NCBI GenBank assembly: GCA_003216895.1
Contig: QCID01000002.1
Location: 1 to 64,000 of the forward strand
Source of the DNA: Prochlorococcus sp. AG-402-K04
GTDB lineage: Bacteria; Cyanobacteriota; Cyanobacteriia; PCC-6307; Cyanobiaceae
Reading direction: 5' to 3'
Length of the DNA: 64,000 nt
This document shows positions 7,272-33,940 of the stretch, piece by piece. The notes under the pieces were generated by a model, which did no database searches, had not been told where the DNA came from, and was given only the letters and a program-made list of their open reading frames with translations. Position 1 is the stretch's first letter, and every line of letters starts with the position of its first letter. Made by a program: the position numbers and the translations under genes.

Positions 7272-7325
7272 AAAAGAAAACCCTCTTTTTAGGGAGGGTT
7301 TCTAAAGATTGTGTGAGGAAATTAT
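7272..7325 (+). ncRNA. yfr2: Yfr2-like small RNA, copy 1
   Basis: A hairpin with AAACCCTC pairing to GAGGGTTT (7278-7301) is followed by a single-stranded CTAAAGATT and then GTGTGAGGA at 7311-7319. Yfr2-family RNAs of cyanobacteria carry a motif nearly complementary to the ACTCCTCACAC loop of Yfr1, and GTGTGAGGA fits this. A second hairpin (ATCGAAG with CTTCGAT, 7324-7359) follows. A matching unit lies at 14662-14717. The ends of the transcript are estimated; no clear T-run follows this copy. Confidence 0.65.
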
Positions 7326-7390
7326 CGAAGAAACAAGCTCAAACATTCTAGCCTTCGATGCAATAAAGACAAAAAGGATTGATTCAAAAC

Positions 7391-7446
7391 TGATGTTCGG
7401 TTTAGGTAGGGCTTTCCTACTCCCTTTTCACAAATAGGAGGAGTAG
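7391..7446 (+). promoter_or_regulatory. Structured leader element, copy 1, upstream of a CxxC microprotein
   Basis: The conserved core TGATGTTCGGTTT is followed by a hairpin GTAGG-GCTTT-CCTAC (7406-7420). The strand CTACTCC (7417-7423) can instead pair with GGAGTAG (7440-7446), so two exclusive folds are possible. The element lies upstream of a strong ribosome binding site and a 29-residue ORF. Copies are at 14899-14954 and 19510-19570 (+) and 10184-10239 (-). It could be a cis-regulatory RNA such as a riboswitch or attenuator; it was not matched to a known class from memory. Confidence 0.55.
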
Positions 7447-7471
7447 ACAGGAGGTGTAGCAAGGAGGTCTT

Positions 7472-7561
7472 ATGAAACTATTTACTCCTTTCACTATCCC
7501 ACAAAAGGGAAACTGCGACTTATGCAGGGTTAGAAAGAATAATAAGAAGAGGGGCAAATAG
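7472..7561 (+). CDS. CxxC microprotein, 29 residues, copy 1
   Basis: ATG at 7472 follows a perfect GGAGG at 7463-7467 with five bases between. The peptide begins MKLFTPFTIPQKGNCDLC and ends in a basic tail rich in Lys, Arg and Asn. Two other copies in the window (14981-15070 and 10003-10155) keep the LFTPFTIP start and the CDLCR motif, with mostly conservative changes, which supports coding. The paired Cys could bind metal or be redox active. It ends inside a rho-independent terminator. Confidence 0.6.
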   Translation: MKLFTPFTIPQKGNCDLCRVRKNNKKRGK

Positions 7562-7573
7562 CCTCTCTTTTTT
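7546..7573 (+). terminator. Rho-independent terminator overlapping the microprotein stop
   Basis: The AGAGG / CCTCT stem with GGCAAATAG between, followed by CTTTTTT. The same structure is at 15055-15082. The region to 7751 after it holds the decayed 3' end of a DUF3104-like gene (TTATTGCTG repeat) and a weak 33-codon frame at 7595-7696. Confidence 0.7.
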
Positions 7574-7751
7574 ATTGCTGTTACTGCTGCAAAAATGTAT
7601 CGGTGGATGCGGCAGTCTAAACATACCTGCGATACAAATAAATCAAGAGTTACCACTCCACAATGGCAAAAGAACTTAAGTTTTCTTCGTCCTTGATAAC
7701 GGTTGGTGTAAGCGTGCTTATGTCTTTGGAACAGCTACATTTTTTAACTAT

Positions 7752-8916
7752 CTAAGCAACGGCTTTTACCAAGAGTGAGGTTTCGTCAAAAGCACTAGCA
7801 AAATCTTTTGTTTGGAATCTTGAGTGGCTCAAAAGGTGAGTGTCCAAAGCGTGGCCCATCGCATCCGAAATTTGTTTTGGTGCTCTATAACTACCATCCG
7901 CTTTAGGTCGATTGTGACCGCAATAGGCATATCTATGGTGAAAACTGTAAGCAGTTAATTCTTGTTCTTCTCTGGAAACTTCTTTCCTGATTGCTCCCAA
8001 ACTTTTCTGCGACTTAAATAAGTTTTGCAAGCATCGCCAGCATTACCCTCTTTACCAAGGGGAGGGAGGAGGTTCAAACCTTCTTTCTCGCAAATAGCTA
8101 ATTGTTCTTTTAGATGCCAGTTAATGGGACCATCAATGTCATGAACCAGTAAAGGATATAAACGTCTAGCCTCTGTTTTTTCTCCTTTCTTACCACCTCT
8201 GGACTTTTGGTAATTAGTCCAAATTTCATGTCCACAATTACGGGTGTGAATTGTTCGGAGGTCTTCTGGTCTTAGGCCATAAACAGCTATTCATTGAAAA
8301 ACAAATCTCCATTTATTGCCAATTTCATCTACGGGGAATGAATCTAATAATCGAAGAATTTGTGAATCTGTTAATGGATAACCAATTCTCTTTTTAGTGG
8401 TGACTAAATCTTTATCTGTTACGGATGGGGCCAACCACGTGGACTCGAACTGCTGTTCCTGAACACAAAACCGAAGAAACCCAAAAAGGGCTAGGCGCTT
8501 GTGTCTTCTTATTGGTGTTCCTTGTTGCCATTGATTAATTGCAACCTTGCAAGTGATGAACCATTTAAAGGTGCTTTGGAGGTATTTCTAGTGGCCTTGA
8601 TTACGTTCTTAAAGACAGGGTGATATTTGCTACGCCAAGTCGAATCTTTTATACGATCGTTTTTAAATTCCCTATAAGCCTCGATTGCTTCTTCCCAGTT
8701 AATTTCAGTTTTGCTTGAAACTGTATGAGCAATATTGAAGCAAGCTTTTATTTCTAATCTCTGGTTTGACTCTTCAAAAGCTTTTGCTGCTGCACTAATT
8801 CTCATTAATGCGACAGGCCAGTATTGTTCTTCCCATTTGTATGGGATAGATACATCACCAATAACTTTTTTATTCTTCCAAACTTTAACTCTCAGGCTTT
8901 CCTTTCTGCCAGCCAT
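7752..8916 (-). pseudogene. Decayed tyrosine recombinase (integrase)
   Basis: Minus-strand remnants of a protein homologous along its length to the intact recombinase at 15913-17145. The N-terminal part (8509-8916) begins MAGRKESLRVKVWKNKK. The middle contains GYPLTDSQILRLLDS, then a stop TGA at about 8291, then VYGLRPEDLRTIH with the first catalytic Arg. The C-terminal part (from about 8030) holds YSFHHRYAY (HxxR) and MGHALDTHLLSHSRF. At least one stop and two frame changes break it. It lies beside a decayed tRNA-Pro fragment at 9001-9079, mirroring the intact element. Confidence 0.85.
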
Positions 8917-9000
8917 GACGAGCCAACCTTTTGGGCATGAAGCTTTAACAGATTGCTAAAATCCTTTACCCAACTTTCTGAGGCTGCTTTCGGCAATTAA

Positions 9001-9079
9001 GAGAGCACTAGATCGCAACTTCTAATCCTGGCACCCTGATCAGTCAGACACAGGTTTCCCCAGTCTGTCTTTTTAATGC
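9001..9079 (+). other. Decayed tRNA-Pro 3' fragment with terminator (old attachment site)
   Basis: The segment from GAGAGCACTAGATCGCAACT through CTAATCCTG and GATCAGTCAGACACAGG to TCTGTCTTTTTAATGC aligns along its length with the minus strand of tRNA-Pro(TGG) and its terminator (23132-23207), at roughly 80 percent identity by eye. It is therefore a tRNA 3' end plus flank, inverted relative to the living tRNA. It sits about 85 bases from the start of the decayed recombinase, the same layout as the intact integrase and its tRNA fragment. Confidence 0.75.
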
Positions 9080-9242
9080 CTAAATGTCGGTTATAAATAA
9101 GGGGAATGATCGCCATACCTTCAGCAGCGATTTAGGTTGAGGCTGTTATGTTAAGAAAGTGCGAGCTTTAGTATTTGATTCTCTGATATTTCTATCCAAA
9201 CAAGATGGAGTATGTAAAATCTTTTAAATTGATTTTTATTTA

Positions 9243-9539
9243 ATGGCTAAGGGTTTTTGGCTCGTTACTACAACAATTACGAATCCAGCTTTTGCTGAAT
9301 ATGTTGAAGCCTTTCAACCCTGGATTGAATCAGTAGGTGGTTCAGTTTTCGCGAAGGATATGGAGGGACAAACTGTCGAAGGAAAGGGTGGAAAATTAGC
9401 AGTAATCATTGAGTTCCCATCAAAGCAAACTGCCATTGATGCTTACAAAAGTTCGAAATATCAAGAACTAAGCAAGTTACGCTGGGCCAATTCAACCGAT
9501 ACTAATATCACCATAATGGATGGCGATGTAACTCATTAA
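9243..9539 (+). CDS. DUF1330-like small alpha/beta protein, 98 residues
   Basis: The protein begins MAKGFWLVTTTITNPAFAEY and includes FQPWIESVGGSVFAKD, LAVIIEFPSKQTAIDAYKS and a C-terminal SKYQELSKLR block. This pattern (an initial beta strand, a YxxxFxPWIxxxGG helix turn, then a FPS-type strand and AIDAY helix) is characteristic of the DUF1330 ferredoxin-like fold. Function is unknown in general. It has no near neighbour on its strand and could be an independent unit. Confidence 0.75.
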   Translation: MAKGFWLVTTTITNPAFAEYVEAFQPWIESVGGSVFAKDMEGQTVEGKGGKLAVIIEFPSKQTAIDAYKSSKYQELSKLRWANSTDTNITIMDGDVTH

Positions 9540-9565
9540 AACATCAAATTTTTATAAGCCAAAGC

Positions 9566-9655
9566 ATGTCCATTAACAAACCCATTCCTGATTCTGGTAT
9601 TGAATACTGGAAAAATGTATTTAAGGATTATCAGGTAAAAATTAGTGGTCATTAA
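9566..9655 (+). CDS. Small ORF, 29 residues, unknown
   Basis: ATG-to-TAA frame encoding MSINKPIPDSGIEYW and a short Lys-rich end, 26 bases after the DUF1330-like gene. No family, no clear ribosome binding site. It could be a real microprotein downstream in the same transcript or a chance frame. Confidence 0.3.
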   Translation: MSINKPIPDSGIEYWKNVFKDYQVKISGH

Positions 9656-9814
9656 AAACCAGTCTGAAATGGTTGTAAGAAACAATAATTAATGGCTAAT
9701 GAGCGACCTTATCCATAACCTTTTAGCTCCTTGGCATCTTTATCTTGATACAACCTTGCTAATTGGCTTTTCCCCTTAGGCTTATTTTTTTAGAGAAAAT
9801 AAGACTTGTAGCTA

Positions 9815-9904
9815 ATGGGAATAGCAATTACTTATTCCATTGCAAATCTTGCAATACTTGGATTGTTCTTTTATGCCACCTATCGAACGACTAGAAAAAA
9901 CTAA
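9815..9904 (+). CDS. Single-span membrane microprotein, 29 residues
   Basis: The peptide begins MGIAITYSIANLAILGLFFY and ends in a basic TYRTTRKN tail, a typical single membrane helix with a cytoplasmic positive end. Its TAA stop overlaps the ATG of the next small gene (TAATG), a translational-coupling arrangement that supports both frames as genes. No family recognised. Confidence 0.5.
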   Translation: MGIAITYSIANLAILGLFFYATYRTTRKN

Positions 9905-10050
9905 TGAATCAATTAAAAGGTGTTTTCCCATTTTTTGCGGCAATTGGTATTTACTACTTGGCTCTTAATTCGCCGATGTATCAAAAAATGAAGCAACCCC
10001 ACTCAGTCGAAAACGAAATCAAATCTATCCCTGTAGAGAGTTTTAAATAG
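9904..10050 (+). CDS. Single-span membrane microprotein, 48 residues
   Basis: The peptide begins MNQLKGVFPFFAAIGIYYLA (one membrane helix) followed by a hydrophilic tail (SPMYQKMKQPHSVENEIKS). It is translationally coupled to the preceding 29-residue gene. Its 3' end overlaps, on the other strand, the extended C-terminus of CxxC microprotein copy 3, which suggests that copy lost its normal stop codon. Confidence 0.5.
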   Translation: MNQLKGVFPFFAAIGIYYLALNSPMYQKMKQPHSVENEIKSIPVESFK

Positions 10051-10155
10051 TTTTTCTAAAAATGGGTTTTCAGCTTCTCTTCTTTTATTAATTTTGATCC
10101 TGCAAAGGTCGCAGTTTTCCTTTTTAGGGATGGTGAAGGGAGTGAAAAGTCTCAT
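10003..10155 (-). CDS. CxxC microprotein, copy 3, C-terminally extended to 50 residues
   Basis: Begins MRLFTPFTIPKKENCDLCRI, matching copy 2 over the first 20 residues. The other copies stop after 29 residues; here the stop and terminator hairpin are gone and the frame runs on into DNA that is antisense to the membrane microprotein at 9904-10050. A clear AGGAGG precedes the ATG and the structured leader is complete. The extension probably reflects decay or truncation of the 3' end of the unit. Confidence 0.5.
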   Translation of the reverse strand: MRLFTPFTIPKKENCDLCRIKINKRREAENPFLEKLFKTLYRDRFDFVFD

Positions 10156-10183
10156 AAAGACCTCCTATTGCTACATCTTTGGT

Positions 10184-10239
10184 CTACTCCTCCTCTTCGT
10201 AAGAGGGTAGTAGGGAAGCACTACCTCAACCGAACATCA
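10184..10239 (-). promoter_or_regulatory. Structured leader element, copy 3 (minus strand)
   Basis: Same core as copies 1 and 2 (TGATGTTCGG, then AGGTAGTGCTTCCC). The second hairpin differs in sequence but keeps pairing: CTACT with AGTAG and, inside it, CCTCTT with AAGAGG around an ACG loop. Different bases with preserved pairing compared with copy 1 argue for a selected RNA structure. It lies 28 bases upstream of the microprotein start. Confidence 0.55.
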
Positions 10240-10317
10240 TCAAGAAAGAAATACTTTATAAACTTTTAGAAAGTGAATCATTTTTAAGTTTCACATAAAA
10301 TTTATTAACTACTTGCT

Positions 10318-10428
10318 ATGAGTTCAATAATTAATTCCTCAGCAGTTAAGTTCCTAGCTCTTTTCTGCATCCCTGCGCTAATTCTTGCATCAGGTTCATT
10401 TGATGTTGGTACTTCAGTAATCGTTTAA
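10318..10428 (+). CDS. SVIV-family membrane microprotein, 36 residues, copy 1
   Basis: Begins MSSIINSSAVKFLALFCIPA, one membrane segment, and ends GTSVIV. Two relatives lie on the minus strand at 19311-19421 and 18072-18185, all 36-37 residues and all ending in SVIV followed by TAA. Substitutions are mostly conservative, supporting coding. It heads a run of four plus-strand microgenes (10318-10774), just as the 19311-19421 copy heads the minus-strand run. Confidence 0.6.
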   Translation: MSSIINSSAVKFLALFCIPALILASGSFDVGTSVIV

Positions 10429-10437
10429 GATAAAAAA

Positions 10438-10563
10438 ATGGGAATGAATCCTTTCAAGCCGTTAGTTCAACATTTCTCAGATTTCTACGGAAAAATACTT
10501 TCTACTAAAGATCCACTAAAAATAAGTTATTTAAAACTACGACTAAGCAAAGCAAACGCTTAA
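10438..10563 (+). CDS. Small basic protein, 41 residues (MNPxKP family)
   Basis: Begins MGMNPFKPLVQHFSDFYGK and ends in a Lys/Arg-rich helix. A shorter relative at 30377-30442 begins MEMNPYKPFMQALKK, so a MxMNPxKP start is shared. It starts nine bases after the SVIV peptide. No function known. Confidence 0.5.
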   Translation: MGMNPFKPLVQHFSDFYGKILSTKDPLKISYLKLRLSKANA

Positions 10564-10568
10564 AACTT

Positions 10569-10676
10569 ATGTACGGATTTAACGAAGCAACAATCATTGC
10601 AAGCTTGGCTATTCCTGCAGGTTTGTTCATTGGCTTTTCAACAATACTTGTTAAAAGACTTCGCCAGTGCATGTGA
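10569..10676 (+). CDS. Single-span membrane microprotein, 35 residues
   Basis: Begins MYGFNEATIIASLAIPAG, continues through a hydrophobic FIGFSTILV and ends VKRLRQCM. It is five bases after the preceding small gene, and its TGA shares one base with the next ATG (TGATG), indicating coupled translation. No family recognised. Confidence 0.5.
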   Translation: MYGFNEATIIASLAIPAGLFIGFSTILVKRLRQCM

Positions 10677-10774
10677 TGACTACTTCTGTTCAAGCTAAAA
10701 CAAATAAAAAGCCAAAATTCGACCTGGGCGAATTAATAGGTCAACTTTTGTTTGATTTTTATGCTCGTTACTAA
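10676..10774 (+). CDS. Small soluble protein, 32 residues
   Basis: Begins MTTSVQAKTNKKPKFDLGEL and ends GQLLFDFYARY. Coupled to the membrane microprotein before it by a one-base stop/start overlap. Last of the four microgenes. Unknown function. Confidence 0.4.
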   Translation: MTTSVQAKTNKKPKFDLGELIGQLLFDFYARY

Positions 10775-10801
10775 GTATTAGTTTGCCGTTTAGTAGTGAT
10801 T

Positions 10802-10945
10802 TTAGCTCAATAGTTTCTGCAATCTTCCACCTCCGTACATAACTTCTATACCTATTAATTGTTGTCTTTCCCGCCGAAACATCTCAGCCATTTCCCTGGT
10901 TGAGTCGAAGTCTAGTCGCCCCAAGGAACGACACAAAGCAATCAA
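10802..10945 (-). CDS. Small basic protein, 47 residues, TTG start
   Basis: The frame starts at a TTG that overlaps the TGA of the upstream gene (TTGA), a coupled arrangement. The protein contains LGRLDFDSTREMAEMF and IGIEVMYGGGRLQKLLS, well-formed amphipathic sequence. No ATG is available until codon 19, so a shorter 29-residue product is the alternative. Unknown function; last gene of the minus-strand unit 12046 to 10802. Confidence 0.45.
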   Translation of the reverse strand: MIALCRSLGRLDFDSTREMAEMFRRERQQLIGIEVMYGGGRLQKLLS

Positions 10946-11367
10946 GTATCGTTAGCTAAAAATTCAATATATTTTTTCAATGTATAGCCATGACAATCGA
11001 ATGGGTATTTAGCCTGTAGACCTACAGCATTATCTTGACCTCTAAATCTTCGACAATTACAAACAAGATCAATATCTGTTCCAGCTTTAAACTCTTTCAC
11101 TCTTGCTTCAAACCACTTTTTAGCTGCTTTTGGAATATTTTCATCTTCATGCCAACTCTGCCAAACCAAACTATCAAACATTTTTATTCCCTCTTCCCTT
11201 ATAACCCCATCGATTCTGTCAAAGGGGTTTCTTACAGGGCATTTTGGTTCATTTATAAAGAATCTCTTTGGTGACTTTGGGCCATGGATCCATGAACGCT
11301 TTTCCATGGATCCAAATACCTCTATTTGGTCAAAATATTTCTTTGGATGGACTTCAGCTTCAGTCAT
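10942..11367 (-). CDS. DUF4326-like protein, 141 residues
   Basis: The C-terminal part has a C-x-C...C-H-G pattern (VCNCRRFRGQ, later FDCHGYTLKKYIEFLA), and the middle has PVRNPFDRIDGVIREEGIKM, resembling the NPF...LxCxCxPxxCHG layout of DUF4326 proteins, which are common in phages and of unknown activity. The match is from memory and only moderate. It lies in a minus-strand run of short genes. The 20-base gap upstream contains a fragment of the structured leader (AGGTAGTGCTTCCCTA, 11371-11386). Confidence 0.5.
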   Translation of the reverse strand: MTEAEVHPKKYFDQIEVFGSMEKRSWIHGPKSPKRFFINEPKCPVRNPFDRIDGVIREEGIKMFDSLVWQSWHEDENIPKAAKKWFEARVKEFKAGTDIDLVCNCRRFRGQDNAVGLQAKYPFDCHGYTLKKYIEFLANDT

Positions 11368-11387
11368 ATGAGGTAGTGCTTCCCTAT

Positions 11388-11615
11388 CTATTTTTTCTTT
11401 GGCTTGTCGTAATTAAATTTGGTAGAAACTTTGTTGCCTAGCCAAGAAAGAGTTCCTTGATACATGTCCTCACTCAGTAAGTAATTGAGTGCGTCTTCTG
11501 AAGATGCTGCTTCAGCTATTTCCTCTTGGGGTATTAGCTCTACATCTTCCGCTTGAACTGCAAAAGGGCAAAAAACCAAAAAAAGACCAAGAATAAGCGA
11601 AAAGAATTTGTTCAT
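11388..11615 (-). CDS. Small secreted protein, 75 residues
   Basis: Begins MNKFFSLILGLFLVFCPFAV with an A-Q-A cleavage site before EDVELIPQ, a typical Sec signal peptide. The mature part of about 52 residues is acidic, then basic at the end (DKPKKK). It starts immediately after the stop codon of the 38-residue gene upstream (TAGATG). Unknown function. Confidence 0.6.
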   Translation of the reverse strand: MNKFFSLILGLFLVFCPFAVQAEDVELIPQEEIAEAASSEDALNYLLSEDMYQGTLSWLGNKVSTKFNYDKPKKK

Positions 11616-11732
11616 CTAATCCAGCCTATCTGCATAATCTCTAAGAATTTCTGCGATCACATTTGGGGGGATTTCCTCTTGAGCTTCCTTGCATAAATCA
11701 AAGAACTTATCAATAAACTCTTTTCTGGTCAT
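11616..11732 (-). CDS. Small helical protein, 38 residues
   Basis: Minus-strand ATG-to-TAG frame, MTRKEFIDKFFDLCKEAQEE onward, ending DYADRLD, strongly amphipathic and acidic. The stop is directly followed by the ATG of the secreted protein, so the two are probably translated in sequence. It is missed by length-limited gene callers. Unknown function. Confidence 0.5.
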   Translation of the reverse strand: MTRKEFIDKFFDLCKEAQEEIPPNVIAEILRDYADRLD

Positions 11733-11779
11733 ATTTCTGAATGGGCCTATTTATTCTATTAAAGGCTAAAATTTTCTTT

Positions 11780-12046
11780 TTATTGCTCTTGCTTCTGCTG
11801 TTGTTGTATTTGCTCGTAAAAAGAAGATGGCTTTTTAATTGTTGTCCGATATTCACTAACAATCTCTGTAACTTCCTCTCCATGAATCCAGCGAATTTCA
11901 CCAGAATCTACATTTGCGATCTGGAAGAGTGTCGGTGCGTTTGGATCTCTTGAGCCACCAATAAAAGTAAGGACTTTTCCTATCTGATCTTTTTCATAGA
12001 GAACAGCGTCTCCTGGTCTGACTTTTAAAAATAGAGGTTCATCCAT
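11780..12046 (-). CDS. DUF3104-family protein, 88 residues, Gln-rich tail (copy 1)
   Basis: Begins MDEPLFLKVRPGDAVLYEKD and contains GGSRDPNAPTLFQIANVDSG and a WIHGEEVTEIV block. A GGxRDP...LFQ(I/V)A.VD(T/S)G pattern is typical of DUF3104 proteins of marine picocyanobacteria, of unknown function. It is a near-identical paralogue of 15081-15347. The C-terminus is a run of Gln with Lys and Glu (QQQQKQEQ), encoded by a CAA/CAG repeat that probably expands and contracts. Confidence 0.75.
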   Translation of the reverse strand: MDEPLFLKVRPGDAVLYEKDQIGKVLTFIGGSRDPNAPTLFQIANVDSGEIRWIHGEEVTEIVSEYRTTIKKPSSFYEQIQQQQKQEQ

Positions 12047-12091
12047 ATATACTTTCTAGCTAAATCCATAGGACAGGGGAAGTATTTTTAA

Positions 12092-12199
12092 TTACCAATC
12101 GGGATACTCCCCTTGGACTGGTTCCTCGTAGAAATCACCTTTTTTTATACCAGCAAAATATTCAGTTAAAAATTCTTTCTGGTTGGCTTGGTCTTCCAA
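12092..12199 (-). CDS. Small acidic protein, 35 residues, TTG start
   Basis: The frame reads MEDQANQKEFLTEYFAGIKK and ends QGEYPDW. It starts two bases after the stop of the secreted GWGEGG protein. No ATG is available; TTG is the only normal start before an upstream in-frame stop. Sequence quality suggests a real microprotein, but nothing else supports it. Confidence 0.4.
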   Translation of the reverse strand: MEDQANQKEFLTEYFAGIKKGDFYEEPVQGEYPDW

Positions 12200-12200
12200 C

Positions 12201-12374
12201 TTAAGCGTCAGTTTCTTTTACTTGCTCAGTATTTGCTTCTTGGTTTCTTTTGTCTTTTGAATAAGAGCAACCACCTTCACCCCAACCCCATGCAAGGGAA
12301 GGACTTGCAATAACTGAAAGAGCAAAAACAAATGCAATAATCTTTTTCACTTTGAACTTAAAAGTAGGTTTCAT
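12201..12374 (-). CDS. Small secreted GWGEGGC protein, 57 residues
   Basis: Begins with a basic region and hydrophobic core (KKIIAFVFALSVIASPSLA), then WGWGEGGCSYSKDKRN, and an acidic end. This is a clear Sec signal peptide of about 28 residues with ASPSLA cleavage; a Gly-Trp-Gly-Glu-Gly-Gly-Cys start to the mature protein is, from memory, a recurring pattern in marine cyanobacterial small exported proteins. It is the first gene of the minus-strand unit. Its upstream region holds the 18-nt repeat at 12391-12408. Confidence 0.6.
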   Translation of the reverse strand: MKPTFKFKVKKIIAFVFALSVIASPSLAWGWGEGGCSYSKDKRNQEANTEQVKETDA

Positions 12375-12390
12375 ATCTTAAGAGCATTTT

Positions 12391-12408
12391 CCTAAGTTCG
12401 TTAAATCC
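12391..12408. repeat. 18-nt repeat also found next to tRNA-Pro ends
   Basis: CCTAAGTTCGTTAAATCC differs by one base from CCTAAGTCCGTTAAATCC at 23052-23069 and resembles CCAAGTCTGTTAAATCC at 15404-15420. The last two lie about 100 bases from tRNA-Pro 3' ends (intact and fragment), so this may mark another old element boundary, here just before tenA. Confidence 0.4.
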
Positions 12409-12529
12409 AGTTAAATAAAACTGAACATTCATTAATGATTGACTCCGCCATCAAGGATGGTGATATTAGTATCTGTTGAATCTATAATAAAAAGAGGCAT
12501 GATGTGTTTACGAAACAATTGCTTAATCA

Positions 12530-13156
12530 ATGCTGATAACTCAAAAATTATGGGAACGCAATTATAATCTTGCATCACTAAGCCTTAATACTAAATTCGT
12601 CCAGGGGATAAAAAATGGAGATCTTCCTAAAACAAAATTCCAAGAATATTTAGCTCAAGATTATTTTTTTTTAGAAAGTTTCGCTCGGGCATACGGTTTA
12701 GCAGTTTCTAAGTCACGCAATAAAAAAAATATCAAAACTTTAAGCGTACTGTTATCAGGAGTATCAGAGGAGTTGATTATGCATGAAACTTATGCAAAAG
12801 AATGGGATATTGATTTAACTAAAAATTCAATAGAACCAGCTACAAAAAAATATACTGATTTTTTAGAAGAAATCTCCTTAAACTTAAGTTTAATTGAAAT
12901 AATGAGCGCAATGACACCATGTATGCGTTTATATTCTTGGCTTGGAAAAAAATTATTAAATATGATTTCCGATAATCCTTATAAAGAATGGATCTTAACT
13001 TACTCTGATGAAAGTTTTGACAATCTTGCAAAATCACTAGAAAATCTAATAGATGAATATGATGAATCTTATGATATTGACCAAGTTAATTTTCTATATA
13101 AAAGAGCTATGGAATTGGAACTAGATTTTTTCAATGCCTATTCTTCCTTCTCTTAA
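12530..13156 (+). CDS. tenA: TenA/thiaminase-II family protein
   Basis: A 208-residue all-helical protein of normal TenA length. Family features are the N-terminal LWERNYNL..F, FQEYLAQDYFFLESFARAYGLA near residue 38, SEELIMHETYAKEWDI near 80, AMTPCMRLYSWLGKKL near 129 and the C-terminal FLYKRAMELELDFFNAY. TenA enzymes hydrolyse or salvage pyrimidine moieties of thiamine. It precedes thiD by 32 bases, so the pair is a thiamine-pyrimidine salvage unit. It lies within the island between element ends, so it may be carried cargo or chromosomal DNA trapped between insertions. Confidence 0.85.
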   Translation: MLITQKLWERNYNLASLSLNTKFVQGIKNGDLPKTKFQEYLAQDYFFLESFARAYGLAVSKSRNKKNIKTLSVLLSGVSEELIMHETYAKEWDIDLTKNSIEPATKKYTDFLEEISLNLSLIEIMSAMTPCMRLYSWLGKKLLNMISDNPYKEWILTYSDESFDNLAKSLENLIDEYDESYDIDQVNFLYKRAMELELDFFNAYSSFS

Positions 13157-13188
13157 ATTAGAAAATATTTACCTTATAAGAGGAGATT

Positions 13189-13971
13189 ATGTATTCTAAA
13201 ATTGTTCTCTCAATCGGCGGTAGTGATTCGAGTGGAGGTGCAGGAATTCAAGCAGATCTAAGAACTTTCATGTCTATGAAAGTCCATGGGTGCATTGTAA
13301 TTACATGTATTACAGCGCAAAATAGTATAGGAGTAACTGGCGTAGAGGCTGTTGAAAGTAATATATTAATCAATCAGATTGATTCTTTATTCTCGGATTT
13401 CGAGATACAGTGTTTAAAGACTGGAATGCTCTTAAATGAAAGAATCATTATAAATACTGGTACAAAATTGAAGGAATTCGCTATCCCTAAAATTATTGAT
13501 CCAGTCATGGTTTCAAGAACTGGATCAAAATTACTTGAAGATAGTGCAATTAATGCTTATAAAAAATTACTTTTTCCTCAGGCAGAAATAGTAACTCCAA
13601 ATATTTATGAAGCTAATTTACTTTCAAATGTTCAAATAAAAAATGAAGAAGATATTGAAATTTCTGCTCAAGAAATTTTAAAGCTTGGCCCTAAAGCTGT
13701 ACTAATAAAAGGAGGAGGATTAAATTCCTTGAAAGGTAAAGATTTTTATATTGATAGAGAAGGTAAAAGAGATTGGTTAATTAATAAATTTATTAATACC
13801 TCAAATACACATGGTAGTGGATGTACATTAAGTGCTGCTATTTGTAGTTATATTGCTTTAGGATTTAACTTAATTGAATCAATCAAAAAGGCAAAGTCTT
13901 TTATTGAGAAATCATTAGAAAAATCCTATAAGATTGGAGCTGGTCCTGGACCTCTTGGCCATCACCAATAA
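13189..13971 (+). CDS. thiD: Hydroxymethylpyrimidine/phosphomethylpyrimidine kinase
   Basis: A 260-residue ribokinase-fold enzyme that phosphorylates hydroxymethylpyrimidine twice for thiamine synthesis. Visible motifs are IGGSDSSGGAGIQADLRTF near residue 8, MVSRTGSKLLEDSA near 105, TPNIYEANLLSN near 137, KGGG near 175 and the catalytic NTHGSGCTLSAAI near 205. AGGAG lies just before the ATG. Its partner tenA lies upstream in the same orientation. Confidence 0.95.
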   Translation: MYSKIVLSIGGSDSSGGAGIQADLRTFMSMKVHGCIVITCITAQNSIGVTGVEAVESNILINQIDSLFSDFEIQCLKTGMLLNERIIINTGTKLKEFAIPKIIDPVMVSRTGSKLLEDSAINAYKKLLFPQAEIVTPNIYEANLLSNVQIKNEEDIEISAQEILKLGPKAVLIKGGGLNSLKGKDFYIDREGKRDWLINKFINTSNTHGSGCTLSAAICSYIALGFNLIESIKKAKSFIEKSLEKSYKIGAGPGPLGHHQ

Positions 13972-14203
13972 AAGATATGCTGACGTTTAAAGCAATTTTC
14001 TTAAGTTAATAAAAAATATAACTCTTAGGACTAAAAAATTTAAAACAAATTAATTCATTAAAAGAAACATTTAAAATTAAGAATTCTAATTGATAATTGT
14101 CTTTAAAGAAAGTTAATCTATGAATCATTTTAAAGAATATTTTGAATTAAAAAATTAAAAAAAGAAAAATTAGAAATCCTACAACTTCCATTAAAGTGAA
14201 TAT

Positions 14204-14248
14204 GTCGATTTCGCAGAACTTGTGGGTTCTCTCTCGGCATTAAAGCAT
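14204..14248 (-). repeat. 45-nt leader repeat, copy 2
   Basis: On the minus strand keeps the AGAAC / GTTCT hairpin and the TGCGA that follows. Only a 14-codon frame lies downstream, so its gene has been lost or the copy is solitary. See 1675-1719 and 21866-21910. Confidence 0.6.
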
Positions 14249-14261
14249 TTTAAGAACCTAT

Positions 14262-14330
14262 TACTTTTACATGAGCTTTCGCATGGATTTGTGCTGTGCT
14301 CATGGTTCCTCTAATGCTGTTCATCTGGGC
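14262..14330 (+). pseudogene. Decayed membrane microprotein (paralogue of 21923-22066)
   Basis: Reading FAWICAVLMVPLMLFIWA matches FAWLCAVLMVPLMLFI of the relative at 21923. Here the start codon is lost and a TGA replaces the Tyr codon before the helix; a frame change follows, after which KKPELTDIEV matches KKPESTDIEV. Both copies lie just after a 45-nt leader repeat, so leader and gene were duplicated together. Confidence 0.6.
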
Positions 14331-14415
14331 ATAAGACACTAAGAAAACCAGAATTAACAGATATAGAAGTTACGGCTGGAGTAGGAAAAAGATCGCTGAT
14401 AAATATAAGGTTTAT

Positions 14416-14447
14416 CCTACTACTGTCAGGCGGTGGTCTATGGCTTA
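14416..14447. repeat. 32-nt repeat, copy B
   Basis: CCTACTACTGTCAGGCGGTG onward; closest to copy C (18712-18743). The 3' end of the 43-residue minus-strand gene falls inside it. Unknown function. Confidence 0.45.
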
Positions 14448-14569
14448 GAAAGTTTATGGATAGCCTTATCAGACTTTTTTAAAATTTTTAGAGCCTCTTT
14501 TCTTGAAGTACAAGCATCCGCTTTGGCTTGAAGTTTTAAAAGTTTGGCGTGTTGTTTCTCTAAGTTCAT
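14438..14569 (-). CDS. Small basic helical protein, 43 residues
   Basis: Begins MNLEKQHAKLLKLQAKADAC and continues TSRKEALKILKKSDKAIHKL; strongly amphipathic and Lys-rich, with one Cys. It stands alone on the minus strand and its stop lies within the 32-nt repeat. No family recognised. Sequence quality favours a real gene. Confidence 0.5.
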   Translation of the reverse strand: MNLEKQHAKLLKLQAKADACTSRKEALKILKKSDKAIHKLSKP

Positions 14570-14661
14570 CCAACATTGGATAAAAACGAAGTCAGCAAAC
14601 TAACAGCTTTAGGCCCTAACCGAGGAAAAAGGTTCTCTAATTTGTATATTTTGAGCTTTGC

Positions 14662-14717
14662 AATAGAAAACCCTCACGATGGAGGGTTAACTAAAAATTG
14701 TGTGAGGAAGTTTTTTT
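14662..14717 (+). ncRNA. yfr2: Yfr2-like small RNA, copy 2
   Basis: AACCCTC pairs with GAGGGTT (14669-14688), then CTAAAAATT and GTGTGAGGA at 14700-14708, followed by a T-run (GTTTTTTT) that could end transcription. It shares stem, spacing and motif with copy 1 at 7272-7325. The motif is nearly complementary to the conserved Yfr1 loop, the hallmark of this cyanobacterial RNA family. Endpoints are estimated. Confidence 0.7.
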
Positions 14718-14898
14718 GAAGGGAAAAGATTGAACATTCCACCCCTTGGGTTCTCAGAAAAAGTGCAGGCCTAATGAACTTTTTTTGAATTTGCGAAGAG
14801 AGGACAGGATTTCGACGACCGTCCCCCGATCTGGCTTGATGATGCTTCCGTATTACGCCATCAACTTGGGCTTAGTTTAAAAAGAACTATTCCTGACC

Positions 14899-14954
14899 TG
14901 ATGTTCGGTTGAGGTAGTGCTTCCCTACTCCCATCCAATAAAAAGAAGGATTAG
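14899..14954 (+). promoter_or_regulatory. Structured leader element, copy 2
   Basis: TGATGTTCGGTTGAGGTAGT core with GTAG/CTAC hairpin (14914-14928). The alternative pairing here uses ATCC (14933-14936) with GGAT (14948-14951) plus CTA with TAG, different bases from copies 1 and 3 but the same place. It lies 26 bases before the CxxC microprotein start. Confidence 0.55.
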
Positions 14955-14980
14955 ACCAAAGGTGTAAGAAAGTAGGCTTT

Positions 14981-15070
14981 ATGAGACTATTCACTCCCTT
15001 CACCATCCCTAAAAAGGAAAACTGCGATCTTTGCAGGATTAAAAGGAATAATCAGAAGAGGGGCAAATAG
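14981..15070 (+). CDS. CxxC microprotein, 29 residues, copy 2
   Basis: Begins MRLFTPFTIPKKENCDLCRI and ends with a basic KRGK. Between this copy and copy 1 most changes are synonymous or conservative (Lys/Arg, Ile/Val), which supports translation. The ribosome binding site (AGTAGGC) is weaker than in copies 1 and 3. It ends in a terminator hairpin shared with the 3' end of the opposing DUF3104 gene. Confidence 0.6.
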   Translation: MRLFTPFTIPKKENCDLCRIKRNNQKRGK

Positions 15071-15082
15071 CCTCTCTTTTTT
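15055..15082 (+). terminator. Rho-independent terminator after microprotein copy 2
   Basis: AGAGG / CCTCT stem followed by CTTTTTT; the same structure as 7546-7573. The T-run abuts the stop codon of the opposing DUF3104 gene. Confidence 0.7.
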
Positions 15083-15704: not shown

Positions 15705-15923
15705 TTGACTGAAAAATGGCAACCGACTCAAGATCAGCAAACAGGTCCAATATCACGGGTCTTTGATTTCTTCACTGAAGAATTAAACGAATTACAGGAA
15801 GAATTGGATTGTCCTGATGAATTTATTTATGACTTCTTAGAAGTAATTAGAAATCGATGGTCACCAGATAGCTGCCACGCAAAAGCAAGACAAAACAAAA
15901 GAGATAACCCAGATGCCTATTAA
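15705..15923 (+). CDS. Small acidic protein coupled to the integrase, 72 residues
   Basis: Starts at TTG (no ATG in frame) and reads MTEKWQPTQDQQTGPISRVF, then a Glu-rich helix and a VIRNRWSPDSCHAKARQNK tail. It overlaps the recombinase start by 11 bases, so the two are coupled and it may be a recombination accessory or control protein. No family recognised. It lies between the tRNA fragment and the integrase. Confidence 0.6.
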   Translation: MTEKWQPTQDQQTGPISRVFDFFTEELNELQEELDCPDEFIYDFLEVIRNRWSPDSCHAKARQNKRDNPDAY

Positions 15924-17145
15924 GAAAGAAACTGAACCTTGGGTTATTAATTTCAGGCAGCTTCTAAAAGATTCGCTGCATCCTGGTGCTCAATGGTTTG
16001 TTTCTAATAGTCGAGGTCAGATGAGGTTAGAGATTAGAGAAGAAGGTCATAAGCAATCAAGGATCTTACCTTTTGAGTGGAACCAAAAAGCTGCTGCAAA
16101 AGCATTACCAAGGATCCAACAAATATATAAAAACTACATTCAAGCAAAAGGACAAAAAACACTCAGTCAAGCCTGTGAGATTACAGAAGTATCAAGTTCT
16201 AGGCATCAGATCGATTGGGATGGACTTATAGATGAGTTCAGGAAATTCGTGCCTAACGCAAGTGAGAAGACTTGGAGCAAAAGTTATTTACCAGTTTTAA
16301 ATAGAGCAGGTTTATTAATTCAGAAATCAAAAGGGAAACCTCATAATGGGGAAGAACTGATGATGAAATCACTTAACAAAAAAGGATGGGAACAAGGGAA
16401 AAGATCTAGACAGATTGCAAGAAGATCGCTAACTGCATTTCTTAATTGGGCTGTATTACGTGGAAAGTTAATTGCTGATTATGCTCCACCAGCTCATATT
16501 CCAGAGACAAGAAAAGCTAAGGCCATTGGATATGCAATTTCAGACGAACAAATTCTTGGACTTCTTAATTCAATACCTGAAGGTATACATGCCGCAGAAA
16601 TAAAAACCTATAACTCATGGAGATTTGCCATTCAACTTTGTAGTGTATATGGATTAAGACCTGAAGAGCTAAGACATCTATCAATCAAGGAAGGTTCCCA
16701 GGGAAAAGAGCTATGGACCATTTATCAAAAAAGCAAAGGAGGAAAAAAAGGAGAAAAGACTGAGCCAAGACAATTACATCCTTTGTTAATCAAAGATCCT
16801 GATGGAAAATCAATAGATTGGAACCTACAGAACAGAATTGAGATAGGAGAAAAGCTTCCACCGTTAGGTCAACTTGGGCATGGCGGTGAAGCATTAGGAA
16901 CATTCCTCAAACGACGTAAGCATTGGCAATCATTAAGGTCTTTAGCTACAGCAACTGGAGAAGTATTAAAGCCTTATGCCTTTAGACATCGTTATGCAAA
17001 AGAGTCTCATGCAGAAGGTTTCCCAATGGCCAATATCTGCAAAGCGATGGGTCACACCATCGAAGTTCATTTAGGAAACTACGCAAGATTCACACCTGAT
17101 GGAACAGCTGATCTGTATGCCAAGCGCAACGCGAGGGTCGCTTAA
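15913..17145 (+). CDS. Tyrosine recombinase (integrase) of a tRNA-targeting element
   Basis: A 410-residue site-specific recombinase. The N-terminal half (to about 190) is the DNA-binding region. The catalytic half shows the first Arg in YGLRPEELRHL, Lys-rich KGGKKGEKTEPRQLHP, HxxR in YAFRHRYAK and the His/Tyr end in MGHTIEVHLGNYARF, so all catalytic residues appear present. It starts about 370 bases from the tRNA-Pro 3' fragment, the normal place for an integrase acting on that tRNA. A decayed homologue is at 7752-8916. The arrangement fits tycheposon-type elements of Prochlorococcus. Confidence 0.92.
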   Translation: MPIKKETEPWVINFRQLLKDSLHPGAQWFVSNSRGQMRLEIREEGHKQSRILPFEWNQKAAAKALPRIQQIYKNYIQAKGQKTLSQACEITEVSSSRHQIDWDGLIDEFRKFVPNASEKTWSKSYLPVLNRAGLLIQKSKGKPHNGEELMMKSLNKKGWEQGKRSRQIARRSLTAFLNWAVLRGKLIADYAPPAHIPETRKAKAIGYAISDEQILGLLNSIPEGIHAAEIKTYNSWRFAIQLCSVYGLRPEELRHLSIKEGSQGKELWTIYQKSKGGKKGEKTEPRQLHPLLIKDPDGKSIDWNLQNRIEIGEKLPPLGQLGHGGEALGTFLKRRKHWQSLRSLATATGEVLKPYAFRHRYAKESHAEGFPMANICKAMGHTIEVHLGNYARFTPDGTADLYAKRNARVA

Positions 17146-17407: not shown

Positions 17408-17436
17408 CTGAAGTTCGGTCGAAGTAGGGCTTTCCA
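17408..17436 (+). repeat. Fragment of the structured leader element
   Basis: AAGTTCGGTCGAAGTAGGGC followed by TTTCC resembles the core of the leader copies, without a clear second hairpin or CxxC frame. It is probably a decayed copy. The surrounding 17295-17563 has no supported gene. Confidence 0.35.
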
Positions 17437-19310: not shown

Positions 19311-19421
19311 TTAAACGATTACAGAAGTAGAGACATCAAATGAACCTGATGCAAGGATTAGCGCAGGGATACAAAAAAGAACTAGGAACTTCGCTGCTGA
19401 AGAATTATTGATTGAAGTCAT
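19311..19421 (-). CDS. SVIV-family membrane microprotein, 36 residues, copy 2
   Basis: Begins MTSINNSSAAKFLVLFCIPA and ends STSVIV; near-identical in layout to 10318-10428. It is the first gene of the eight-gene minus-strand cluster ending in the PsaJ-like gene. The two close copies differ at many third positions, supporting protein-level selection. Confidence 0.6.
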   Translation of the reverse strand: MTSINNSSAAKFLVLFCIPALILASGSFDVSTSVIV

Positions 19422-19509: not shown

Positions 19510-19570
19510 TGATGTTCGGTTGGGGTAGTGCTTCCCTACTCCCATCCAATAAAAAAAGGATTAACAAGTA
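19510..19570 (+). promoter_or_regulatory. Structured leader element, copy 4
   Basis: TGATGTTCGGTTGGGGTAGT core, GTAG/CTAC hairpin, then ATCC with GGAT and an outer CTAC with GTAG. No CxxC microprotein follows. A GTG-initiated frame of 52 residues (19528-19686), containing YLDLHPRGNSPLDQYLKGIL, overlaps it and may be the tail of a truncated gene. Confidence 0.5.
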
Positions 19571-23160: not shown

Positions 23161-23168
23161 CTGACTGA

Positions 23169-23242
23169 TCGGGGCGACAGGATTCGAACCTGCGACCTAG
23201 TGCTCCCAAAGCACCCGCGCTACCAAGCTGCGCCACGCCCCG
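23169..23242 (-). tRNA. tRNA-Pro(TGG), intact
   Basis: Cloverleaf by eye: acceptor CGGGGCG with CGCCCCG, D-arm GCGCAGCTTGGTAGCGC, anticodon loop TTTGGGA giving anticodon TGG, and T-arm with GGTTCGAATCC. 74 bases with discriminator A and no encoded CCA. It is the target of the integrative elements: a 3' fragment is at 15510-15546 and a 5' fragment at 24231-24272, each ending at the anticodon arm. Confidence 0.95.
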
Positions 23243-23498
23243 ACAACTAAGATTGTAGCCCCTGAAAGCTGCTTAGAAAATATAAATTCCCTAAAGCTTG
23301 ACTCAATAATGCTCAAATTGAATCATTTAGAGCGTTTTGTCACTCGTTTGTCACTCGCCATAACCCTTTAGAAATTTCTTGAATAGCAAAGATAGAAATC
23401 AGTAATTTTAAAAAACCTCATTTAAAGAGGAAACTATTCAGTTATTGATGTCTTATTGAACTAGATCAACTAGAAAGGAGATTAGATAATGATTGTTT

Positions 23499-33868: not shown

Positions 33869-33940
33869 TGGGTCGCCTGAGATTCGAACTCAGGACCAGC
33901 CGGTTAAAAGCCGGATGCTCTACCACTGAGCTAGCGACCC
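33869..33940 (-). tRNA. tRNA-Lys(TTT)
   Basis: Cloverleaf: acceptor GGGTCGC with GCGACCC, D-arm GCTCAGTGGTAGAGC, anticodon stem CCGG with loop CTTTTAA and CCGG (anticodon TTT), T-arm with GAGTTCGAATCTC. 72 bases with discriminator A. No tRNA-Lys fragments were seen elsewhere in the window, so there is no sign of insertion here. It marks the start of core chromosome to the right. Confidence 0.95.

Follow-up and report, generated by a model that had tools for sequence, protein, structure and literature searches.

A 27-nucleotide repeat in Prochlorococcus islands as putative control site of a promoter divergent from a small-protein gene

What is the function of the repeat TGATGTTCGGTT..AGGTAG, which recurs within a stretch of 64,000 nucleotides (nt) from Prochlorococcus sp. 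AG-402-K04 (contig QCID01000002.1, positions 1 to 64,000; this whole stretch is referred to as the window) and stands in front of short open reading frames (ORFs) encoding a peptide with a CxxC motif? The initial annotation regarded it as the structured leader of this peptide, namely as a riboswitch or attenuator with two exclusive folds controlling a metal- or redox-binding product. We come to a different answer, as the repeat is best read as the upstream control site of a putative promoter on the opposite strand and would thus be the junction of two divergent units. This explanation as a whole, an outward activator-type promoter next to a separate small-protein gene, is probably correct. It is supported by the spacing between repeat and -10 hexamer, the restriction to one genus, a peptide leader without a conserved fold, purifying selection on the peptide and the independent occurrence of repeat and peptide, and from these statistics we infer activator binding, promoter activity, transcription and a function of the protein.

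Read on the strand opposite to the peptide leader, the repeat is a 27-nt box, GGAAAGCNCTACCTCAACCGAACATCA, with five matches in the window at up to three mismatches (0.00 expected from dinucleotide-preserving shuffles). This search recovered the copies noticed before at 7391, 14899 and 19510 (+) and at 10239 (-), and the supposed fragment at 17408-17436 turned out to be a fifth, diverged copy located at 17409-17435. A second fragment at 11371-11386 does belong to the repeat, but only with its 12-bp end, which lies at the start of a minus-strand ORF of 141 amino acids (aa). Additional copies are present on another contig of the source genome. Conserved sequence is also found upstream of the 27 nt and makes sense solely on the opposite strand: there 59 of 88 distinct copies have a TAnnnT hexamer at offset 46, whereas no shuffle gave more than 15, and from the position composition a purine start is expected around offset 58, where 72% of 83 copies have A, with no conserved -35 hexamer being found on this strand of the box copies. 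Relative to this predicted start the box lies at about -58 to -32 and the centre of its core close to -43, where activator sites are usually located. The fixed distance between box and TAnnnT is what is expected of an activator-type sigma-70 promoter. NtcA-type activator-dependent promoters have the same geometry (site near -43, TAnnnT as -10, no -35 hexamer), but the box differs from their site and does not match GTAN8TAC. Readings of the opposite-strand structure as group II intron, integron attC, repetitive extragenic palindromic (REP) element or tRNA-like element, all weighed on sequence only, were set aside because the fixed spacing between box and -10 explains the conservation better.

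In the mechanism that we propose, an activator would bind at about -58 to -32 of a promoter pointing away from the peptide, and this promoter would yield structured leader RNAs or small RNAs (sRNAs) as well as orphan genes of ~35-45 aa in LLI-type Prochlorococcus islands. Across the junction there would be an independent gene encoding 50 aa, or 29 aa in copies whose 3' end gave way to a terminator, and its translation would start from an AGGAGG ribosome site without any switch in the leader.

The distribution of the box is narrow. Of 41 genomes of the window's genus, which we take to be LLI-type Prochlorococcus, 36 contain its pattern, whereas it is absent from all 359 genomes of other Cyanobiaceae, and a reversed control pattern gave zero matches in the same search; exact box matches for which a name was given all belong to Prochlorococcus (20 of 20). 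Repeat copies were found in 34 of the 41 genus genomes, often several per genome and clustered, and in seven near-complete genomes the majority of the box copies lies in one island region. A phage origin was rejected, as phage records gave no match and neither peptide relatives nor the box were found in viral contigs. A tentative extension, to which we give somewhat less than even credence, is that the box defines an island-restricted regulon, in which one activator peculiar to LLI-type Prochlorococcus would act on several copies per genome and drive several small orphan proteins along with structured, in part Yfr1-like sRNAs, and possibly also the divergent 50-aa protein.

In order to see what such a promoter might drive, we surveyed 89 box copies with sufficient flanking sequence in the collected loci. 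Downstream of them we found either structured RNAs or one of a limited number of orphan genes with ~35-45 aa (MTSINNSSAAKFLALFCIP..., MDMNPFKPLIQHC..., MYGVNEAVIIASLAIPAGLF..., MNLEKQHAKLLKLQAKADACTSRKEALK... and M.S.DKAAFEKKAFKFVPFLILG...), and none of the small proteins neighbouring the box scored above the Pfam cut-off. A MAFFT alignment of the whole opposite-strand element gave no structure (RNAalifold 0.0) because the 5' hairpin exists in different classes, and therefore hairpin B with its loop GTCGTCGAAATCC was counted alone. It is present in 44 of the 89 copies and 89.6% of the cells of its helix are paired compared to 86.2% in shuffles, which exceeds every one of 500 shuffles; four pairs are changed on both sides, a support weakened by the relatedness of the copies. 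Seventeen of the 89 copies carry a Yfr1-like TTCCTCACAC with, in the typical case, a terminator downstream. The ultraconserved motif of Yfr1 is aCUCCUcACACAC (PMC2518516), and for Yfr10 sRNAs the same motif is reported within a stem loop (PMC6778093). A subset of the putative box-driven RNAs is alike in having TTCCTCACACA and a terminator, and at locus L030 the motif is predicted to lie in the loop of a stem as in Yfr10 (PMC6778093). The box RNAs differ in showing UUCC instead of CUCC (first C to U), with a 10-nt core UCCUCACACA being common to both. The Rfam covariance model for Yfr1 did not match the box RNAs even at relaxed E-values, and we regard the resemblance as suggestive only. At L030:2068-2180 and similar loci a terminator-like hairpin ends at the start codon of a gene for a 38-aa membrane-like protein; the GAGGG of its 3' arm could be the ribosome site, making it a possible real attenuator on the strand of the box. 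The same islands also contain Yfr13 sRNA genes, several of them near box copies (L037:14194-14269, L044:17706-17779, L047:2739-2812, L047:5765-5838, L058:2549-2622 and L062:788-863), and cobalamin riboswitches are found in the same neighbourhoods (L040:7462-7608, L033:2544-2690 and L063:2476-2622).

For the other side of the junction 56 distinct peptide units were gathered from the collected loci. In the window, peptide ORFs do follow the first, the second and the minus-strand repeat, and the 29 residues described originally hold for the copies at 7472 and 14981, but the minus-strand copy encodes 50 aa. At 19510, where a full leader had been assumed, the repeat is present but the peptide unit is reduced to a truncated remnant. 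The peptide has two intact forms, the full-length one with 50 aa and a C-truncated one with 29 aa, which has the first half in common with the longer form and ends in a terminator hairpin that includes its stop codon; this terminator, already proposed before, is strong (-16 kcal/mol, z -4.45). Many further copies are decayed by frameshifts or stops. For the 50-aa form we obtained a mean synonymous divergence (dS) of 0.77 and a nonsynonymous divergence (dN) of 0.149 (15 full copies), and for the short form, over its first 19 codons, 0.73 and 0.048 (23 copies). Thus, the peptide is a genuine coding gene under purifying selection (dN/dS ~0.07-0.19), and the idea of a multicopy unit with a genuine small CxxC-motif protein is borne out. 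No family in Pfam, NCBIfam or PHROGs matches the peptide, which by its sequence is a member of a new small-protein family. Relatives beginning MKLITPFTILNQNFHEMDLIREAM... were found in putative high-light Prochlorococcus (profile comparison probability 92.8, E 4e-7, 41 columns) and chromosomal paralogues beginning MKLFTPFSIPKPEITELCRIQK... in LLI genomes. The cysteine pair is present in most LLI copies. Because the high-light relatives lack both cysteines, CxxC is not family-defining and the suggested metal or redox binding becomes less likely as the function of the family. A search for distant relatives by the cysteine pattern found nothing, as these lack the pair.

Box and peptide are not strictly linked. 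In the collected loci, a sample biased towards the peptide unit, this unit adjoins 34 of the 89 boxes, and the box stands without peptide in most cases. The peptide unit also occurs without the box, with other sequences on its left but an unchanged start at GTAG, and it is not dependent on the box because it is also found beside glutamine-II riboswitch units. These riboswitches (Downstream-peptide, RF01704) are divergent and located ~55 nt from the start of the peptide unit (L040:8538-8593, L041:3722-3777, L054:2989-3046 and L057:1774-1829); they are likewise structured RNAs that precede genes for small peptides in these islands, but lie on the strand opposite to the peptide unit and are distinct from the leader described, and none was found in the window. 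At L054 the next ORF at the riboswitch begins MNNLALTKKRIKKAERLH. As box and peptide unit each occur without the other, they are separate modules with a common 12-bp edge, GTAGNGCTTTCC; this sharing may go back to one regulator site used by both, to a junction formed by recombination or to an ancestral divergent pair from which both derive. Another version of the edge, GTAGGGCTAACCAGTTCGG, together with an additional GTTCGG repeat, leads into other genes (L048:4209, L047:15603, L046:1454 and L040:2577) and may represent a variant of the site to which the same regulator would bind.

Two other explanations have to be weighed here. A single regulator site could act on two divergent promoters, by which the peptide would be co-regulated with the opposite unit. 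The divergent layout of many copies in the collected loci and the observation that peptide copies without box have frequently lost the GC of the common edge, too (GTAGTGTTTTCC), agree with this, but the aligned leaders show no conserved -10 on the peptide side of the edge and intact peptide genes without box exist, and we consider it unlikely. Alternatively, the 27-nt repeat or its 12-bp edge might be a recombination or insertion site, for example the attachment site of the island tyrosine recombinase, with the units being shuffled cassettes. Several different left and right flanks of the edge, the recombinase and its decayed relatives in the same stretch and the clustering of copies in islands speak for such a site, whereas the fixed TAnnnT spacing and the one-sided extended conservation are features of a promoter, and we hold this alternative to be decidedly unlikely. 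The proposed movement as one cassette is supported in part, since the 5' edge of the peptide unit stays at GTAG while its left neighbour changes (at least three different ones), but no mechanism came to light. The tyrosine recombinase is located among the repeats at 15913-17145 and its two decayed relatives at 8509-8916 and 7752-8030 (BLASTP E 8e-10 and 3e-8), and genes for tRNA-Pro and tRNA-Lys at 23167-23243 and 33869-33940 are possible integration points of island elements. In having a tyrosine recombinase and tRNA genes within the same 64 kb the window resembles the tycheposons of Prochlorococcus islands.

The riboswitch or attenuator originally assumed in the peptide leader did not survive the wider alignment. 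RNAalifold predicted no pairs (0 kcal/mol) for 36 aligned leaders, and the pairings proposed can be drawn in single copies but are not kept across all of them. The main helix, CTACTCC/GGAGTAG, is drawable in some copies, but it shows zero compensatory changes, one of its pairs is broken in 20 of the 36 copies, and none of 500 shuffles has partners pairing less well. GTAG/CTAC is pairable in 96.5% of the cells, with one double change and shuffles following close behind. Three leaders tested individually show no folding beyond that of shuffled sequence (z +0.64, -0.27 and +1.32), and Rfam contains no described RNA family matching the peptide leader. Thus, a leader with two exclusive folds controlling a metal- or redox-binding peptide is very improbable.

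The features of the window are collected in Table 1.

Table 1. Boxes, predicted transcripts and peptide units in the window (TSS, transcription start site)
Feature	Position	Strand	Remarks
27-nt box, copy 1	7391-7417	-	fires leftward (predicted); -10 TGTCTT 7371-7366, weak; predicted TSS ~7359
27-nt box of minus-strand peptide copy	10213-10239	+	fires rightward (predicted); -10 TAAACT 10259-10264; predicted TSS ~10271
27-nt box, copy 2	14899-14925	-	fires leftward (predicted); -10 TAAACT 14879-14874; predicted TSS ~14867
27-nt box, diverged solo copy	17409-17435	-	-10 TATTCT 17389-17384
27-nt box, copy 3	19510-19536	-	fires leftward (predicted); -10 TATATT 19490-19485; predicted TSS ~19478
Predicted sRNA of copy 1	7272-7359	-	hairpin, Yfr1-like TTCCTCACAC at 7320-7311, intrinsic terminator
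36-aa orphan gene MSSIINSSAVKFLALFCIPALILASGSFDVGTSVIV	10318-10428	+	downstream of putative rightward promoter
Predicted structured transcript of copy 2	14660-14867	-	hairpins (conserved loop GTCGTCGAAATCC 14819-14807), terminator-like hairpin, Yfr1-like TTCCTCACAC 14709-14700, terminator
36-aa orphan gene MTSINNSSAAKFLVLFCIPALILASGSFDVSTSVIV	19311-19421	-	downstream of putative copy-3 promoter
5' region of peptide copy 1 (GTAG..AGGAGG)	7406-7471	+	no conserved fold
29-aa short form MKLFTPFTIPQKGNCDLCRVRKNNKKRGK	7472-7561	+	copy 1
Intrinsic terminator, copy 1	7544-7573	+	overlaps final codons and stop codon
50-aa full-length peptide gene MRLFTPFTIPKKENCDLCRIKINKRREAENPFLEKLFKTLYRDRFDFVFD	10003-10155	-	5' region 10224-10156
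5' region of peptide copy 2	14914-14980	+	
29-aa short form MRLFTPFTIPKKENCDLCRIKRNNQKRGK	14981-15070	+	copy 2; terminator ~15053-15082
Truncated peptide-unit remnant, no ORF	19525-19563	+	beside box copy 3

Several points weigh against the explanation as outward promoter and separate small-protein gene. The -10 of copy 1 in the window is poor (TGTCTT), and the edge GTAGNGCTTTCC is found in box-only as well as in peptide-only copies, which a pure promoter model does not fully explain. Neither a promoter for the peptide gene nor an activator for the box was found, and the covariation of hairpin B is modest among mutually related copies.

In summary, the flexible islands of Prochlorococcus are rich in tiny genes of unknown function, and if our explanation is true, a promoter site shared only within this genus would show that many of these genes are expressed as one set. 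The box would then give a handle on the regulator and on the condition. Furthermore, the correction of the strand avoids work on a riboswitch that is probably absent.

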